In this document: positions 2-5,965 of the stretch, one piece after another
Position numbering within the stretch: position 1 is the stretch's first letter
Layout of the letters: the number at the start of each line of letters is the position of its first letter
Assembly: GCA_003696125.1 (NCBI GenBank)
Contig: RFHZ01000896.1
Coordinates: 1-5,965 of the forward strand
Length of the DNA: 5,965 bases
Reading direction: 5' to 3'
Source: Nitrospinota bacterium
GTDB lineage: Bacteria; Tectomicrobia; Entotheonellia; J063
Translations under genes and position numbers: made by a program
The notes under the pieces: model-generated
Database searches by the model: none
What the model was told of the DNA's origin: nothing
What the model saw: the letters and a program-made list of their open reading frames with translations, nothing else

Positions 2-481
2 GGGAAGTGTCGGCAGGGGTATGGTGGAGCCTGGACCGTGGGGGAGACAGGTGCTGCCACTCTCTGTCCCTTCCTCTTTCATGCCGCCTATCCCTATTTT
101 GTCACCCTGCTCAACGGTGGCTGGTTCCCCTGGGTTCCGGCCGGAGGCACGGTTATTGCCCAGTGTGGCAATCCTGAGGGAGCGGTAGAACTGGAGATTG
201 GCCGGGAGGTCCGAGAGGACAGCACGGTCGTTTTTGCCCGCATCAGAAAGGTACGGGGCATCTGTCCTCAAGGGTATGAATCCGGGCAGGCATTTGCCTT
301 TACCATGGACGAACTCCCCTGCTGTCCCAAAGCTGCCGGGGCCTTTATCCCTTATCTGGCTTTTGTGGCCCAGGGAGGGGAACTCCCCTGGAAGGATGCA
401 GAGGGAACTCCCGTTCTCTGTTGTCCTGATGTCTCGTGTGATGCGGTATTTACCATAGGGAAGGATTGGCGGTGCGGTTGA
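2..481 (+). CDS. Tandem TIGR04076-like cysteine-rich protein (copy A), 5' end cut by window
   Basis: The frame is open to the window edge, so the gene starts upstream; the GTG at 38 lies inside the first domain and is not the start. Numbering from the codon at 2, 159 residues are visible and hold two copies of one domain. Copy 1 has C3, GY at 6-7, CP at 22-23, a YPY motif at 30-32, GGxxPW at 39-44 and C55. Copy 2 has C88, GY at 91-92, CCP at 107-109, PY at 117-118, GGxxPW at 125-130 and CCPD at 140-143. This is the pattern I recall for the small cysteine-rich TIGR04076 family (about 90 residues, usually one domain), whose function is unknown to me. The conserved cysteines suggest metal or cluster binding; that is inference. 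No signal peptide or membrane segment is visible in this part. By comparison with the paralogue at 2764-3363, probably only a short N-terminal piece is missing. The gene lies 49 bases before a radical SAM gene on the same strand, probably in one operon. The family call is good; the function is open. Confidence 0.8.
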   Translation, partial: GKCRQGYGGAWTVGETGAATLCPFLFHAAYPYFVTLLNGGWFPWVPAGGTVIAQCGNPEGAVELEIGREVREDSTVVFARIRKVRGICPQGYESGQAFAFTMDELPCCPKAAGAFIPYLAFVAQGGELPWKDAEGTPVLCCPDVSCDAVFTIGKDWRCG

Positions 482-506
482 TCCCCGGGTACATGGTACC
501 CGGGAT
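481..506 (+). promoter_or_regulatory. Intercistronic hairpin at the end of the copy A gene
   Basis: A near-perfect inverted repeat: CCCGGGTAC (484-492) pairs with GTACCCGGG (496-504) across a three-base loop. The stem extends by two A-T pairs (481-482 with 505-506) past a bulged C at 483. It begins at the last base of the TGA stop of the upstream gene and ends 10 bases before the Shine-Dalgarno site of the radical SAM gene. No T-run follows, so it is not a standard intrinsic terminator. It could stabilise or process the mRNA, or lower expression of the downstream gene relative to the upstream one. The structure is seen; the role is inferred. Confidence 0.55.
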
Positions 507-516
507 TCACATCCAC

Positions 517-521
517 AGGAG
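517..521 (+). promoter_or_regulatory. Ribosome binding site for the first radical SAM gene
   Basis: AGGAG lies nine bases before the ATG at 531. It supports that start and sits outside the preceding hairpin, so the hairpin would not directly cover it. Confidence 0.65.
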
Positions 522-530
522 AACAGGATC

Positions 531-1622
531 ATGCGTTTGCTCTACAATCGAGCCAGAATTTTTGCCGGCATAGCCACATACCACTACCTGGGACGAAGAC
601 GGCCGGTGGTGGCCTATCTCTTGCTGACCAATCGATGCAACCTGCGCTGCCGCTACTGCTTTGTCGATGTGAACACCATCTACAAGAGCGACTTTACCCT
701 CAGCGAGTGGGAGGCAACGCTGGATAACCTGAAAAAGCATGGCGGAGTTTCGATCTGTCTGATGGGAGGAGAACCGCTCCTCTTCAAAGATATCGATGAG
801 TTGATCCTCTATGGAAAGCGGCTCGGATTCAACATCGAGATGACGACCAATGGGTTTGGCCTCGAGAAACATATCGATGCGGTGAAGCGTGTGAATGCGG
901 TGATGCTCTCCCTGGACGGTCCCCAGGAGATTATGGAGAAGAATCGAGGGAAACGATCGTATGACTATGTGATGCGGGCACTCGAACTTTTGCAGCGGCA
1001 TAAGGTACCGGTACGGATCAACTGTGTGGCAACAAAGCAGAATAAGGACGCCATCCCCTGGCTCTTGGACTTTGCAGATAAACACAATGTCTGGGTGACC
1101 TTCTCTCTGACCGCCGATTTTCCCCCGGAGGCTAAGGATCTGGAAGCGGAGATCATGCTCACCCGGGAGGAAGTCAAGGAGTACTACCGTCTGCTCCTGC
1201 GACACAAGCGGGCAGGGAGGAAGATCCTCTTCTCCGAAGAGACGCTCCGATACGTTATCGACTATCCCCTCCCCTACCAGGAAATCCTCTGGCGTAATGG
1301 GGAGAGATTGCGACCAAAAGAGACGTGTCTGTTTGGACAGACGATGATCTATATCAACAGCAATGGGGACATCTACCCCTGTGCAACTCTCTGGAATACG
1401 GATAAGTTTCAGCCGAAGAATATCCGGAAAGATGGGTTTGAGGCTGCCCTGGATCATGCGGCCCGTCTGCCGTGTAAAGGGTGTTTCTGCCCCGGAGTGC
1501 CGGAGTGGAAGCGGATGGCTACACTACGGGGAGCCCTGTTCGGTCTGAAAGTCACGATCAATCAGGTATGGAGTCATCGATTAAACCGGGAGACGCCTTC
1601 CGCGATCACCCATATGGAGTGA
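531..1622 (+). CDS. Radical SAM protein with SPASM/twitch-like C-terminus
   Basis: A 363-residue radical SAM enzyme. The 4Fe-4S/SAM-binding motif CNLRCRYC gives C36, C40 and C43, preceded by a LLLTNR strand. The SAM-contacting GGEP motif is at 79-82, and TTNGF and LSLDGP follow as the usual barrel strands. The C-terminal part has C266-x12-G279-x4-C284, the SPASM signature, then C315, C318 and C320, so it probably carries one auxiliary Fe-S cluster. SPASM/twitch enzymes modify peptides, proteins, lipids or small molecules by radical chemistry begun with 5'-deoxyadenosyl. The N-terminal 25 residues are basic and aromatic, with no clear transmembrane helix. ATG 531 is preceded by AGGAG at good spacing. 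The gene sits between a cysteine-rich tandem-domain gene and a second radical SAM gene. The two radical SAM proteins differ clearly in sequence (GGEP here, GIGE there), so they are not a recent duplication. The superfamily call is very secure; the substrate is unknown. Confidence 0.93.
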   Translation: MRLLYNRARIFAGIATYHYLGRRRPVVAYLLLTNRCNLRCRYCFVDVNTIYKSDFTLSEWEATLDNLKKHGGVSICLMGGEPLLFKDIDELILYGKRLGFNIEMTTNGFGLEKHIDAVKRVNAVMLSLDGPQEIMEKNRGKRSYDYVMRALELLQRHKVPVRINCVATKQNKDAIPWLLDFADKHNVWVTFSLTADFPPEAKDLEAEIMLTREEVKEYYRLLLRHKRAGRKILFSEETLRYVIDYPLPYQEILWRNGERLRPKETCLFGQTMIYINSNGDIYPCATLWNTDKFQPKNIRKDGFEAALDHAARLPCKGCFCPGVPEWKRMATLRGALFGLKVTINQVWSHRLNRETPSAITHME

Positions 1623-1724
1623 GTAGTCATCTACACTCCATGCAGGACAGGGGGCACCCTTTTAAAGAGAGCCTTCCTGGGGCTGCATGCTGAGAAGTGA
1701 GGGTTATCGGTGCTGGAGTAGAGC
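1623..1724 (+). other. 102-base gap between the two radical SAM genes
   Basis: This is the longest non-coding gap in the window. It holds a short inverted repeat, CATGCAG (1639-1645) and CTGCATG (1683-1689), with a 37-base loop, too weak to call a defined structure. A 17-codon frame runs from ATG 1640 to TGA 1693 and has no Shine-Dalgarno site. I see no clear -35/-10 promoter and no terminator with a T-run. The last bases carry GGAG (1715-1718), six bases before the ATG of the next gene. Confidence 0.4.
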
Positions 1725-2744
1725 ATGAGACGATCAACGAAACACAGCTTTATGCAAGCGATCCCCTTATCCAATCTCCTCCGGTATACGCTCGATCTCT
1801 ACATACGACCGAGCAGAGCCCTGGCCAAACCCTCTTACTTGCAGATCTCGACCACGTCCCGTTGTAATCTCGCCTGTAAAATGTGTAACAACCAGAGGCT
1901 TCGCAGAAGGGCGAGCCTTCCCCTAGAAGATTTTGTCACCATACTCCAGCATGCAAGAGAGGTCCCGATCATCGTATTTTCCGGTATCGGGGAGAACTTT
2001 CTCCACCGGGACTTTCTGGACATGGTCGATTTGTGTCGGCAGGAAGGCAAGTATATTCAGGTTACCACGAATCTCAACGTGGGAAAGCACCGCCTGGAAA
2101 AGCTCCTTACCTACAGGATCGACCTTATCGATGTCTCCATCGATGGCTGGGATCAGGCGTCTTATGAACAGATCCGGATCCATGGAAAGTGGTCGCTCTT
2201 GATAGAAAACTTGCAAGCGATGAGCCAGTTCATCCGAGAGGAGTCACTCCCCACTCGTATCAGAGTCCGGCTGGTGCTGAGCAGGTACAATGCAGACAGG
2301 CTCATCGACTTTGTGACCCTGATGGAACGGTTAGGGGTTCATGCGATCGAGATCTCTCCCCTGACCGGTGCGGTGCATAAAGAGGTCCGAGCCGTAAGCT
2401 CCTATACCACTATCGTAAAGGCGCTGCGAAGACGGCTGAAACAGTCATCGGTAATCCTTGAAGCGCAAAAAGTGAGCAACGTCAAAGCGATCAATCGCTG
2501 TCCGTATCCCTATCGCGGAATGTACATAGCCGAAACCGGCGCCTATCTCCCCTGTTGCTGGCAGTTACATAACCCCAGGTATGAACAGATTGTGCATGAG
2601 GAATTCCCCTTTGGTAGCCTCAAGGACTATACCCCGGATATGGCCTGGAATTCTCCTCCAATGCGCCATTTCAGACGCATGATGCGTCTGGGAAAGACGC
2701 CAGATTTTTGTCGAGGGTGTGTCCTCTTTAAAGGTGCAGCATGA
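1725..2744 (+). CDS. Radical SAM/SPASM domain protein
   Basis: A 339-residue radical SAM enzyme. The cluster motif CNLACKMC gives C47, C51 and C54 after an ISTTSR strand. The usual GGE motif appears as SGIGE, followed by the VSIDGW and YEQIR stretches typical of SPASM-type enzymes. The C-terminal SPASM domain is well formed: C259-x12-G272-x4-C277, directly followed by C278; then an AWNSPPMRHFRRM segment that matches the usual 'eiWnspe...R' stretch; then C329-x2-C332 just before the stop. One auxiliary 4Fe-4S cluster is likely. The start at ATG 1725 has GGAG six bases upstream; an in-frame ATG at 1752 (residue 10) is a weaker alternative. The N-terminal leader of about 37 residues before the barrel is basic. 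The gene is 19 bases upstream of the second tandem cysteine-rich gene, so the two are probably co-translated and functionally linked. The family is secure; the substrate is unknown. Confidence 0.93.
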   Translation: MRRSTKHSFMQAIPLSNLLRYTLDLYIRPSRALAKPSYLQISTTSRCNLACKMCNNQRLRRRASLPLEDFVTILQHAREVPIIVFSGIGENFLHRDFLDMVDLCRQEGKYIQVTTNLNVGKHRLEKLLTYRIDLIDVSIDGWDQASYEQIRIHGKWSLLIENLQAMSQFIREESLPTRIRVRLVLSRYNADRLIDFVTLMERLGVHAIEISPLTGAVHKEVRAVSSYTTIVKALRRRLKQSSVILEAQKVSNVKAINRCPYPYRGMYIAETGAYLPCCWQLHNPRYEQIVHEEFPFGSLKDYTPDMAWNSPPMRHFRRMMRLGKTPDFCRGCVLFKGAA

Positions 2745-2750
2745 GAACAG

Positions 2751-2760
2751 AAGGAAGGAA
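2751..2760 (+). promoter_or_regulatory. Ribosome binding site supporting the ATG at 2764
   Basis: AAGGAAGGAA lies just upstream of ATG 2764, inside the 19-base gap after the SPASM gene. A second site, GGAG at 2799-2802, is nine bases before an in-frame ATG at 2812. Both starts are therefore plausible, and I prefer the longer form only slightly. Confidence 0.5.
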
Positions 2761-2763
2761 GCG

Positions 2764-3363
2764 ATGAAAGGATGCCTTGCCTTCCCCCCCTTTCTCCTGG
2801 AGACAGGGGAGATGAAGAAGATTTGCAAGTACTGCAAACGGCGGGGACAGGAGTTTAGGCCGAATGACATCGTCCGTGATTTCTGCCCGGATGCGTTGTT
2901 TGTGGCCTATCCGTACGCGTTAGCCCTCCTGTACGGGGCAGAAGGGGAATGTCAAAAGGGGCGTGTACATCTGCGCTGTCCTCACCCCCAGGGAATCGTG
3001 ATGGAGGTACGGCGTGTCCATTGCCGTCCGTTATGGCTCCGGCTGCTGAAGCGTCTCTTCGACTGGGTTGTTGCACGGGTGCTTTACCCTGTAGACTGGG
3101 AAGACTGGCATATACGGGTACGGGTACTAGAGAATCGGGGAGCCTGCCCGGCAAACTATGTTCCTGGTACAACCTACTGGCTGAATGTCAGGCGGACAGA
3201 TGAGTTGTGCCCGGCTGCCTTCCACGGAATCTATCCCTTTGTACTGGCCGACCATGGAGCAGGCGCAGAAGAGAGATCGATTCCTCGGCGTTTGCACTGT
3301 CCTGATCATGAGGGGATCATCTACAACCTGCAATGGCTTGCAGATCCCCCCATTTCATCATAA
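2764..3363 (+). CDS. Tandem TIGR04076-like cysteine-rich protein (copy B) with amphipathic linker
   Basis: A 199-residue paralogue of the protein encoded at the window start. Domain 1 has C21, an extra C24, CP at 41-42, YPY at 49-51 and CP at 72-73. Domain 2 has C128, CP at 149-150, YPF at 157-159 and CPDHEG at 179-184. The cysteine spacing matches the other copy, but the GGxxPW motif of that copy is lost in both domains here, so the role has probably diverged. Between the domains, residues 88-115 form a basic and hydrophobic stretch rich in Trp, Leu and Arg, which could be an amphipathic helix that touches a membrane or a partner. The start is uncertain: ATG 2764 has a good Shine-Dalgarno site, but ATG 2812 (residue 17) also has one and would begin directly at the first domain. 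The stop at 3361-3363 directly abuts the next gene's Shine-Dalgarno site, so translation is probably coupled. The relationship to copy A is clear; the function is unknown. Confidence 0.8.
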   Translation: MKGCLAFPPFLLETGEMKKICKYCKRRGQEFRPNDIVRDFCPDALFVAYPYALALLYGAEGECQKGRVHLRCPHPQGIVMEVRRVHCRPLWLRLLKRLFDWVVARVLYPVDWEDWHIRVRVLENRGACPANYVPGTTYWLNVRRTDELCPAAFHGIYPFVLADHGAGAEERSIPRRLHCPDHEGIIYNLQWLADPPISS

Positions 3364-3376: not shown

Positions 3377-3814
3377 ATGCGACCAACGGTGCATGTCACG
3401 ACTGCCGGAATCCTGACTGTGGTAATGGCACGCTTTGTGCCTGTTGCAGAGGCCTTGGGGTTTTTTCTGGCCTCCTCGCTCCTGGATGTGGATCATTTCG
3501 TCTACTACGCGGCCCGTTTTCGAGAGATGAGTCTCCGTAAGGCGATGGCCTATTTTGAATCGGTGATGAATGTTCCCCGTCCCTGCGTCTGTGTATGCCA
3601 TACGCTCGAGTTTGTGGTCGGCCTGGGCCTGCTGACCCTGGCCAGCTCGTCACGGCTCCTCGTGGCCTGTCTGGCCGGGGTGGTGGTCCATTTAGCCCTG
3701 GACCTGGGGGAAGCGATCGCCATGGATCGCCTCTCCTATCGCTGGTGGTCACTGCTGGAGTATGGCTGGCAGATGCGGAAGCAGTGTTCGATTCACTGCT
3801 CACGCCAATCGTAG
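3377..3814 (+). CDS. Small membrane protein with metal-dependent-hydrolase-like His/Asp motifs
   Basis: A 145-residue hydrophobic protein. Membrane segments are likely at about residues 8-36, 76-92 and 94-110. Polar residues lie in or beside them: H6, D37-x-D39-H40, C-V-C-V-C-H-T-L-E-F at 70-79, and H105-x3-D109. An early His, a DxDH, an HTxEF-like motif and an HxxxD recall the membrane-bound metal-dependent hydrolase group (YdjM-like, PF04307) and related uncharacterised short proteins with a DVDHxxYY motif. The His/Asp set could bind a divalent metal near the membrane surface. The catalytic activity is inferred, not shown, and the protein is shorter than most members of that group. Three alternating cysteines (70, 72, 74) just before the conserved His are an odd feature. 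The C-terminus is basic and polar. ATG 3377 is chosen for its Shine-Dalgarno site and because the conserved region begins there. The gene is 13 bases after the copy B gene, within the operon. Confidence 0.75.
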   Translation: MRPTVHVTTAGILTVVMARFVPVAEALGFFLASSLLDVDHFVYYAARFREMSLRKAMAYFESVMNVPRPCVCVCHTLEFVVGLGLLTLASSSRLLVACLAGVVVHLALDLGEAIAMDRLSYRWWSLLEYGWQMRKQCSIHCSRQS

Positions 3815-3848: not shown

Positions 3849-4658
3849 ATGCAGAGTAAGGTGGAGCAACGGGTCAAAGCCGCCAATCGCCAGTTCTATG
3901 ACGCCGTTGCCGATCATTACGAAGAGGTGGATGGACGCCGTTCCCCTGTGCTTGAAGCCTGGTTGCGTCGAAGACTCTCCTGGCTCCGCCGATATGCACC
4001 GGGAGGGCGACTCCTGGATCTCGGAACCGGGAGTGGCTTTGTGACCCGCTGTGCCAGGGGGATATTTGCTCTGCGGATAGGGGTCGATCTTTCAGCTCGT
4101 ATCCTTATCCAGCATCAAACGGCATTCGATGGGGGGATGGCAGCCGATGTGGATGCCCTCCCTTTTGCAGCCCAGCAGTTTGATGTCGTCACCTGCTTTG
4201 CCGTCTTGCATCACCTCTACACCTTTGACGGATTAGTTGCTGAGGTTGCTCGTGTCCTGAGAACCGGGGGGATATTCTACTCCGACCATGACATGAATGC
4301 AGCCTTTTATCGGCGATTCCGGCTCCCCCTCACCCTCTATCGGCGGCTCTGGTATGATGCCAGGACAAAGTATCACCGGGTGAATCGGCAGATTACTCCA
4401 GAGCTTTATCGATTTGCCGAGTGGCAGGAGGAGGGGATCGAGGTGGAACCCCTCGTACGCCTGCTGGAAGAGGCCGGCTTTTCGGTCATGACCACCTTTC
4501 ACTGGTTTGGGCTGACCCCGATCACCGATACGCTCTTTGGTCAACACACGTTTACGAATGGTTGGGCCCCGCTCCTTTCCGTGATTGCGGTGAAGGGGAG
4601 CAGGATACCAGCACTCTGGGAAGAGCATCTCACGGCAGATGTGACTGCCGTCTCTTAG
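3849..4658 (+). CDS. Class I SAM-dependent methyltransferase (Methyltransf_11/25 type)
   Basis: A 269-residue Rossmann-fold methyltransferase. Motif I is LLDLGTGSGF at 55-64, which binds SAM. The acidic ribose contact is D80 in GVDLS, the adenine-loop motif is DVDALPF at 100-106, FDVV is at 111-114 followed by LHH at 120-122, and the post-motif RVLRTGG is at 135-141. The N-terminus, with an FYDAVADHYEEVDG stretch at 16-29, is the usual entry helix of this group. The C-terminal half is not the minimal fold: residues 150-165 form a basic Arg- and Tyr-rich segment, followed by a region resembling the substrate-binding parts of lipid or small-molecule methyltransferases. No membrane segment is visible. 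The acceptor (O, N or C) cannot be read from the sequence. In this setting it is probably a tailoring enzyme of the same pathway as the radical SAM proteins, and it lies 24 bases before the cobalamin-type radical SAM gene. The family is secure. Confidence 0.92.
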   Translation: MQSKVEQRVKAANRQFYDAVADHYEEVDGRRSPVLEAWLRRRLSWLRRYAPGGRLLDLGTGSGFVTRCARGIFALRIGVDLSARILIQHQTAFDGGMAADVDALPFAAQQFDVVTCFAVLHHLYTFDGLVAEVARVLRTGGIFYSDHDMNAAFYRRFRLPLTLYRRLWYDARTKYHRVNRQITPELYRFAEWQEEGIEVEPLVRLLEEAGFSVMTTFHWFGLTPITDTLFGQHTFTNGWAPLLSVIAVKGSRIPALWEEHLTADVTAVS

Positions 4659-4682: not shown

Positions 4683-5965
4683 ATGCGTGTCTTGCTTGTC
4701 TACCCTAAACCCGATCTGATCGAATTCGATACCACCCACACCATACCGTTGGGTCTGGCTTATCTGGGCGCCTTTTTAGAGCAGGCCGGTCATCAGGTCA
4801 CTGCTCTCGATCTCAACGTGCAGCCGGATACGCTGGAGGAACAGGCGCGAGAGCACGATGTGGTCGGCTTCTATATGATCACCGCCACGGCCAAGGCAAC
4901 CTGGCGAGAAGCGGCACGGGTCAAAGCTGCCAATCCGCGGGCGTATGTGATTGTCGGAGGACCTCATCCTACTGTCCTGCCAGAGGAATCTCTCGCTTTT
5001 TCTCAGATCGATGCCGTGGCACGAAACGAGGCAGAGGAGACGATGGTCGAGTTTGTCGAAGCGGTCGCCTGTGGAGCAGATTGGGGTACCATTACTGGTC
5101 TGTCTTACAGACGACCTGGTGGAGAGATTGTGCACAATCCTGCCCGGAAATTTAACAAAGACCTTGATGCTTACCCCTTCCCCGCCTATCACCTCTTTCC
5201 CATGCACAAATATCAGCCGACCCGACCCACCTGGATTGCTCAGGTCGGCATACGGGCCGGGTCGATGATGACAAGCCGGGGCTGTCCCTATACGTGTAAC
5301 TTCTGTACCAGTTCCCGGCTCTCACCGTACGCCAAGAAGTTTCGTTTTCGCTCCCCCCGTAACGTCGTTGATGAGATTCTCTACCTGATGGATCGCTTTC
5401 AGGTCAACTTCATCGAATTTCAGGATGATGTCTTTAACCTCATCCCGAAGCGATCCATAGAGATCTGCCGGCTCATGATCGACGAAGGGATTCAGATTAG
5501 TTGGAGTATTCCCAACGGGATCTCCCGGGTCGAGAATGTATCACGAGAATTCCTCGAAGTGGCCAAAGCCTCGGGGTGTATCGATGTCTGGTATGCTGCC
5601 GAATCGGGGAGCCCTCGCATTCGAGAGCAGATCATAGGTAAGAGGAGTAGCATGGATGATGTCCGGAACGCGGTCAGTCTGTCGAGAGCGCTCGGCTTCG
5701 ATACCGGAGCCTTTTTCATCTTTGGCAATCCGGATGAAACCCGAGAGGACATGCAGATGACGATCGATTTTGCCCTCTCCCTCCCTATTGACCGGGCCCA
5801 GTTTTCGATTGCCACTCCTTTCCCGGGTACCACCTATTACCACCTGGCCAAAACGCAGGGACGGCTTCTGGTCGAGGATTGGAACATGTACGGGCCGTTT
5901 GAAAATACGGTTTTTTTCGAAGTCGGAGCCACCAAAGCGGTTGAAGTGCTGGAGATGTACAAGAC
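4683..5965 (+). CDS. Cobalamin-binding-domain radical SAM enzyme, 3' end cut by window
   Basis: The frame is open from ATG 4683 to the window edge, 427 codons. The N-terminal part is a Rossmann-like B12-binding domain (PF02310 type): RVLLVYPKP at 2-10, PLGLAYLGAFLEQAGH at 22-37 and the GGPHPT loop at 92-97. As in most enzymes of this class, the lower-ligand motif DxHxxG is not visible, so cobalamin would bind base-off without a protein His ligand. The radical SAM core follows: CPYTCNFC gives C201, C205 and C208, then FQDDVF, AAESGSPRIREQIIGK and FFIFGNPDETRED, all typical of this class. Known relatives methylate unactivated carbon or phosphorus, or carry out ring and lipid chemistry (for example hopanoid C-2 methylation by HpnP and archaeal GDGT cyclisation by GrsA/B). 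Nothing here shows which applies. The start is well fixed by AAGGGAGG. The gene follows the methyltransferase by 24 bases and probably ends a short way past the window. The class call is secure; the reaction is unknown. Confidence 0.93.
   Translation, partial: MRVLLVYPKPDLIEFDTTHTIPLGLAYLGAFLEQAGHQVTALDLNVQPDTLEEQAREHDVVGFYMITATAKATWREAARVKAANPRAYVIVGGPHPTVLPEESLAFSQIDAVARNEAEETMVEFVEAVACGADWGTITGLSYRRPGGEIVHNPARKFNKDLDAYPFPAYHLFPMHKYQPTRPTWIAQVGIRAGSMMTSRGCPYTCNFCTSSRLSPYAKKFRFRSPRNVVDEILYLMDRFQVNFIEFQDDVFNLIPKRSIEICRLMIDEGIQISWSIPNGISRVENVSREFLEVAKASGCIDVWYAAESGSPRIREQIIGKRSSMDDVRNAVSLSRALGFDTGAFFIFGNPDETREDMQMTIDFALSLPIDRAQFSIATPFPGTTYYHLAKTQGRLLVEDWNMYGPFENTVFFEVGATKAVEVLEMYK

Follow-up and report, generated by a model that had tools for sequence, protein, structure and literature searches.

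Radical SAM enzymes of the SPASM and twitch types, among them PqqE, AhbC/AhbD, NirJ, StsB and PapB, share a CX3CX2C core and C-terminal cysteines for auxiliary clusters. The full SPASM motif comprises seven cysteines and two auxiliary clusters, with the pattern C-x9-15-G-x4-C ... C-x2-C-x5-C-x3-C ... C, and SPASM-type enzymes often modify peptides. Of these enzymes, PapB, which carries auxiliary clusters, was shown to need intermolecular electron transfer (PMC10470005). The NCBIfam family TIGR04076 is an uncharacterised subfamily, represented by a model of 91 positions with a curated cut-off of 33 bits. The literature we searched yielded no description of its function; a paper on Bilophila guesses that it takes part in redox reactions or in the metabolism of iron clusters (PMC8667426). 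Here we describe a locus in which two multi-domain members of this family lie beside radical SAM enzymes, a set that is probably an undescribed functional partnership and not a chance neighbourhood.

The window analysed corresponds to the complete contig C302 (5965 bases) from a draft genome fragmented into 990 contigs, and contains seven genes, all in one direction (+). Gene 1 (2-481) encodes a two-domain TIGR04076 protein of 159 residues whose 5' end is cut by the contig edge, so that the first of its domains (about 2-205) is incomplete; the second lies at about 230-472, and the domain profile matches 2-208 and 221-460. Gene 2 (531-1622, 363 residues) is a radical SAM enzyme with a short SPASM/twitch-like C-terminus and gene 3 (1725-2744, 339 residues) is a second radical SAM/SPASM enzyme, from a different lineage. 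These are followed by another two-domain TIGR04076 protein, gene 4 (2764-3363, 199 residues), which starts at the ATG at 2764 with AGGAAGG upstream; its domains occupy about 2791-3018 and 3103-3339, joined by a linker helix at about 3031-3084 (residues 90-107 of the structure model). Gene 5 (3378-3814) encodes a small hydrophobic, membrane-like protein with no clear family in a Pfam profile search, where a YdjM match stayed sub-threshold at 9.7 bits. It shares strand and tight spacing with its neighbours, and may or may not belong to the cluster. Gene 6 (3849-4658) is a class I SAM-dependent methyltransferase (Methyltransf_11, 64.5 bits), and gene 7 (4683-5965), which runs off the contig, is a B12-binding radical SAM enzyme of the HpnJ/BchE-like group (B12-binding 77.8 bits, Radical_SAM 66.2 bits). 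No tRNAs or Rfam families were matched within the window. Mis-binned or foreign origin of the contig was considered and rejected: its GC content is 0.548 against 0.549-0.608 for the other contigs of the genome, and its tetranucleotide distance is 0.180 against 0.125-0.182, both measures lying at the edge of the range.

The original prediction held that two genes together carry four copies of one small cysteine-rich domain of the TIGR04076 type, and the family search it proposed bears this out. Genes 1 and 4 score 67.5 and 44.0 bits respectively, both above the cut-off and each over two stretches, and a wider domain profile recovers all four domains at E-values of 1e-14 to 1e-17, with no further such domain in the window's genome. 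The predicted pattern, C-x(18-20)-C-x(29-32)-C with CP at the middle cysteine and P-Y/F after it, is likewise present in every one of the four, with spacings of C-x18-C-x32-C and C-x18/19-C-x31/32-C in gene 1 and of C-x19-C-x30-C and C-x20-C-x29-C in gene 4. Of the three cysteines, the second and third never vary among 57 domains drawn from many genomes, and the first is almost always kept. One domain of a three-domain protein lacks the first cysteine, and the third domain of a protein in genome G359 lacks the second. The family was also said to be normally single-domain; loci elsewhere agree, but tandem copies exist in genomes G323, G010 and G236 as well. Since membership of TIGR04076 rests on score, the presence of two domains marks a variant and not an exclusion. 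The window proteins (hereafter T2, with T3 and T4 for three and four domains) thus resemble the family in scoring above its curated cut-off and in having the same three cysteines; they differ in their two domains (three or four in relatives), their divergent sequence and their tie to radical SAM genes. A PDB sequence search also aligned gene 1 with designed beta-propellers (8prj and others) at E-values down to 2.5e-6, with no single stretch passing, and we judged these matches to be chance similarity with repeats.

Between the two T2 genes, the predicted pair of radical SAM/SPASM enzymes is present on the same strand, with the qualification that the SPASM score of gene 2 falls just below the cut-off. 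Both proteins exceed the PF04055 gathering score of 29.5 bits (gene 2, 90.7; gene 3, 55.3) and contain CX3CX2C, as CNLRCRYC (residues 36-43) in gene 2 and CNLACKMC in gene 3. Against the SPASM cut-off of 21.5 bits (PF13186), gene 3 reaches 34.7 and gene 2 only 21.1. Neither protein contains the full SPASM motif, only C-x17-C and C-x2-C parts being evident in a twitch-like arrangement. In gene 2, whose motif is reduced in comparison with known SPASM/twitch enzymes, the auxiliary cysteines are confined to residues 266, 284, 315 and 318 (C-x17-C...C-x2-C), and by this pattern the enzyme appears nearer to a twitch type with a single auxiliary cluster. Both enzymes also score far short of all equivalog cut-offs, unlike the described ones. 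The best-matching model for gene 3, aligned over most of its length, is TIGR04317, the radical SAM maturase of a tungsten cofactor oxidoreductase, at 109.5 bits, far below the cut-off of 380, and there is no tungsten oxidoreductase gene within the window. Matches to viperins in PADLOC were set aside as ordinary radical SAM similarity, and a plasmid search returned no relative of gene 4 and only distant radical SAM proteins.

Among 386 diverse genomes, gene 2 has no ortholog except the window's own copy. When gene 2 and its distant homologs were used as queries, a single true ortholog was recovered, with 54% identity, at locus L083 of the Nitrospinaceae draft genome G386. Elsewhere, gene 2-type radical SAM genes were seen in adjacent pairs without T proteins (L048:6988-9145 and L049:7291-9377), the first pair lying near glycosyltransferase-like and sugar-nucleotide genes that were named by eye.

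At L083 the gene 2 ortholog is accompanied by a T3 gene, a PurH-like gene, a second radical SAM gene, an SDR, a methyltransferase and a B12-radical SAM gene. Genome G386 contains two additional loci of this kind, both of which again combine a separate T3 and PurH-like gene with several radical SAM genes, and the gene 2 orthologs of this genome are 54-55% identical to gene 2 (E about 1e-143). Each of the three T3 contigs carries two or three SPASM/twitch-type radical SAM genes, and between them they encode methyltransferases, SDRs, B12-radical SAM enzymes and PurH-like proteins; as all three belong to one genome, we count them as one independent case. One whole contig of 14.5 kb (L221:1-14451) consists of biosynthesis genes, with three SPASM-type radical SAM, three B12-radical SAM, two SDR, a methyltransferase, a T3 and a PurH-like gene, and this set may be a gene cluster not described before, of which the draft genome has three related copies. 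In overall composition these contigs are strongly different from the window, with a GC content of 36-40% against 55%.

Genes 6 and 7 of the window resemble genes of these cassettes: gene 6 is 26% identical to their methyltransferases (E about 1e-19) and gene 7 is 26-33% identical to their B12-radical SAM proteins, a likeness that lends weak support, both being drawn from very large families. Clusters with B12-radical SAM enzymes of the HpnJ group, which make small molecules or lipids, are alike in combining such an enzyme with a methyltransferase and, in G386, with an SDR. They differ in that no hopanoid or ladderane set is seen here, and to our knowledge neither T proteins nor a PurH-like gene occurs in them. 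Gene 7 itself scores 181 bits against HpnJ (TIGR03471), whose cut-off is 577, its protein being incomplete.

Immediately after each T3 gene of G386 lies a divergent PurH-like gene (L221:8911-10476, L222:1995-3560 and L223:2197-3720), whose product matches AICARFT at 96.5 bits, has an MGS-like N-terminus and keeps the KHGN motif, with a score far short of the PurH cut-off. At two of the three loci its reading frame overlaps that of T3, and at the third the two frames adjoin, a hint of coupling between the two proteins. A candidate for the same gene in the window's genome, a single match of 111 bits, was taken to be ordinary PurH.

A search of 77 genomes from the phylum of G386, with the T3 protein alone, recovered one further genome, G438. 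Its 5.2-kb contig has the order T2, radical SAM, T2, radical SAM, radical SAM, SDR. The official TIGR04076 model recognises the T3 and T2 proteins of G386 and G438, at 57.5, 45.1 and 55.8 bits. Radical SAM sequence played no part in the retrieval of the G438 locus, so its gene count is an unbiased test: where the rate at single-domain TIGR04076 loci would predict 0.06 radical SAM genes, these 5.2 kb contain three (P about 3e-5). The corresponding counts for the window and L083 are biased, both loci having been picked with radical SAM genes in view.

How general is this linkage? TIGR04076 occurs in 31 of the 386 diverse genomes, and a general association of the family with radical SAM genes was rejected, as a radical SAM gene lies within four genes at only 3 of 38 single-domain loci. 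The 464 kb around such loci hold five radical SAM genes, and the 41 immediate same-strand neighbours share no common family, two of them being radical SAM genes. On present evidence, the co-occurrence envisaged in the original prediction stands for the multi-domain subgroup (the window, G386 and G438) and fails for the family as a whole; likewise, the linked function it proposed, putatively that of a cluster carrier, electron donor, scaffold or substrate, gains genetic linkage that recurs in other genomes, within one multi-domain subgroup only. Direct adjacency of T and radical SAM genes is confined to three genomes, gene order and the identity of the second radical SAM gene vary between cassettes, and genes 3 and 5 have no counterpart in the others, an ortholog of gene 3 being absent from both the G386 and G438 cassettes.

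These figures bear on the idea that TIGR04076 genes are mobile and came to sit beside radical SAM genes here by accident. The low frequency at single-domain loci would fit such an account, as would the recovery of a T protein at just one of the 80 loci with gene 2 homologues; 54 viral loci searched alongside them returned none. That one locus, however, is L083, which holds by far the closest homologue of gene 2, and the G438 contig, found independently of radical SAM sequence, interleaves three radical SAM genes with two T2 genes. With domains and linker also homologous position by position, chance placement appears very improbable. All cassettes lie on short contigs of draft genomes and binning errors are possible for the relatives; such errors would leave the gene linkage intact, as it lies within single contigs. 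We regard the linkage of T and radical SAM genes in this subgroup as well supported.

The T proteins of the cassettes are related over their whole architecture. Gene 4 is homologous to proteins of G386, G438 and G359 from its first domain through the linker to its second, and aligns in this way with domains 1-2 of the G386 T3 protein (E 4e-17); the linker helices correspond in the alignment, and a short P-V/M motif comes after them. In a domain tree that is short (94 columns) and rough, domain 1 of gene 4 groups with domain 1 of the first G438 protein (G438a), domain 1 of G386 and domains 3-4 of G359 (support 94/76), and domain 2 of gene 4 with domain 2 of G386 (90/93). Domain 1 of gene 1 groups with the second G438 protein (G438b) and with domains 1-2 of G359 (97/89), while domain 2 of gene 1 and domain 2 of G438a fall outside these groups. 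Judged by this alignment, the domains appear to group largely by position in the protein.

The G359 member, from a third lineage, is a single T4 protein of 368 residues (L282:9389-10495), which lies below the official TIGR04076 threshold and was not detected by that model. Its residues 194-345 match gene 4 (E 3e-11) and its N-terminal half matches gene 1 (E 9e-8), so that by similarity it looks like a gene 1 type fused to a gene 4 type; this fusion suggests that the products of genes 1 and 4 work together. The radical SAM gene closest to it, a member of the same broad cluster of radical SAM sequences, lies at a distance of about 7 kb, which is not significant alone (P 0.18). The four genomes searched from this phylum yielded no other multi-domain T protein.

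The remaining tandem proteins appear to have duplicated independently. Within the tree the two domains of the G236 protein pair with each other, as do those of G010, and the G323 domains group together weakly, which points to separate duplications. In G010 the two-domain protein adjoins a ferredoxin-like gene and a split aldehyde ferredoxin oxidoreductase-like gene (L040:454-3368; the oxidoreductase named by eye), and in G236 it adjoins ketoacyl synthase genes beside a ribosomal protein operon (L041:7040-10206). In G323 two two-domain genes adjoin each other on a short contig, without radical SAM neighbours (L039:166-1513).

Structure modelling, also proposed in the original prediction, gave a confident single-domain fold and no clear match to a solved one. 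The single-domain model is b-b-a-b-b (pLDDT 87.5, pTM 0.77); the tandem model is weaker (77.6 and 0.51). With the two models Foldseek found nothing significant, E-values being 0.26 to 1.3 for XdhC-family chains. A second structural alignment ranked the XdhC/CoxI N-terminal domain first for both models (3on5, 2we8, 2we7; Z 6.0-6.6, where values below 8 can be chance), the next unrelated chain reaching 3.6-4.6. The similar predicted arrangement covers about 80 residues at a Z of about 6.5 (3on5, 2we8), with weak Foldseek scores and no sequence similarity detected to the T domain, and may be merely a common arrangement; we treat it as a weak lead.

XdhC proteins hold the molybdenum cofactor and have one conserved cysteine, whose role is unclear (PMC2997495). 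By analogy, T proteins could be scaffolds or carriers, in which a conserved cysteine holds a reactive intermediate or cofactor precursor that is passed between radical enzymes. Two, three or four domains would suit several holding sites, and the frame arrangement with the PurH-like gene in G386 would be in keeping with such a role. The low Z and Foldseek scores weigh against this reading, as do the lack of a sequence match between T proteins and any Pfam family and the missing PurH-like gene on the window and G438 contigs, and we consider a carrier function possible if unlikely. More specifically, gene 1- and gene 4-type proteins, fused in G359, might form a two-component system and a new radical SAM accessory class: an XdhC-like, cysteine-bearing holder of a purine- or pterin-like intermediate that radical SAM, B12-radical SAM and PurH-like enzymes build into a cofactor or metabolite. 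We rate this elaboration as decidedly unlikely.

T proteins might instead be enzymes in their own right, catalysing for example a redox or thiol-chemistry step of the pathway without partnering the radical SAM proteins. The very diverse enzymes that adjoin single-domain TIGR04076 proteins, the ferredoxin-like and oxidoreductase-like neighbours of the G010 tandem protein and the redox role guessed for the family in Bilophila would all agree with this. Cysteines aside, however, there is no catalytic signature, and small repeated domains of variable copy number are more like binding modules, which leaves an enzymatic role fairly doubtful.

That cysteine-rich, repeated small domains adjoin SPASM-type enzymes would also be expected if the T proteins were RiPP-like peptide substrates. 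Yet the domain is predicted with confidence to fold as a unit, and in most of its occurrences across the 31 genomes it lacks radical SAM neighbours. No leader/core layout can be seen, and the cassettes combine several radical SAM lineages with B12 enzymes, methyltransferases and SDRs. The wide occurrence of this folded family away from radical SAM neighbours makes a substrate role extremely unlikely.

The variable domain number, the mostly kept cysteines and the travel with SPASM-type enzymes together make an accessory role the most likely, in our judgement. The recurrence of SPASM/twitch radical SAM, B12-radical SAM, methyltransferase, SDR (G386 and G438) and PurH-like genes (G386) looks like a biosynthesis pathway based on radical chemistry; a literature search returned no description of this cassette. 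In the explanation we favour, to which we give about an even chance, the window belongs to an anaerobic biosynthesis cluster built on radical SAM enzymes, with gene 1- and gene 4-type T2 proteins as their dedicated accessory partners. The two types would co-evolve and serve SPASM/twitch radical SAM enzymes, each b-b-a-b-b domain with its three near-invariant cysteines binding a putative metal or Fe-S centre or a bound intermediate. Through physical contact, the T2 proteins would feed electrons to the neighbouring radical enzymes or hold their substrate, and the product of the cluster would be a small molecule, cofactor or lipid made by anaerobic radical chemistry. The three cysteines of each domain may also serve a purpose other than a metal or carrier role.

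TIGR04076 is a widespread family without known function, and the subgroup described here gives it a specific, recurring radical SAM context, with two T2 proteins and the gene 2 enzyme as the minimal set. If the partnership is true, the T proteins would be a new kind of accessory protein in radical SAM chemistry, and uncultured bacteria would be expected to have a biosynthesis pathway not described so far.
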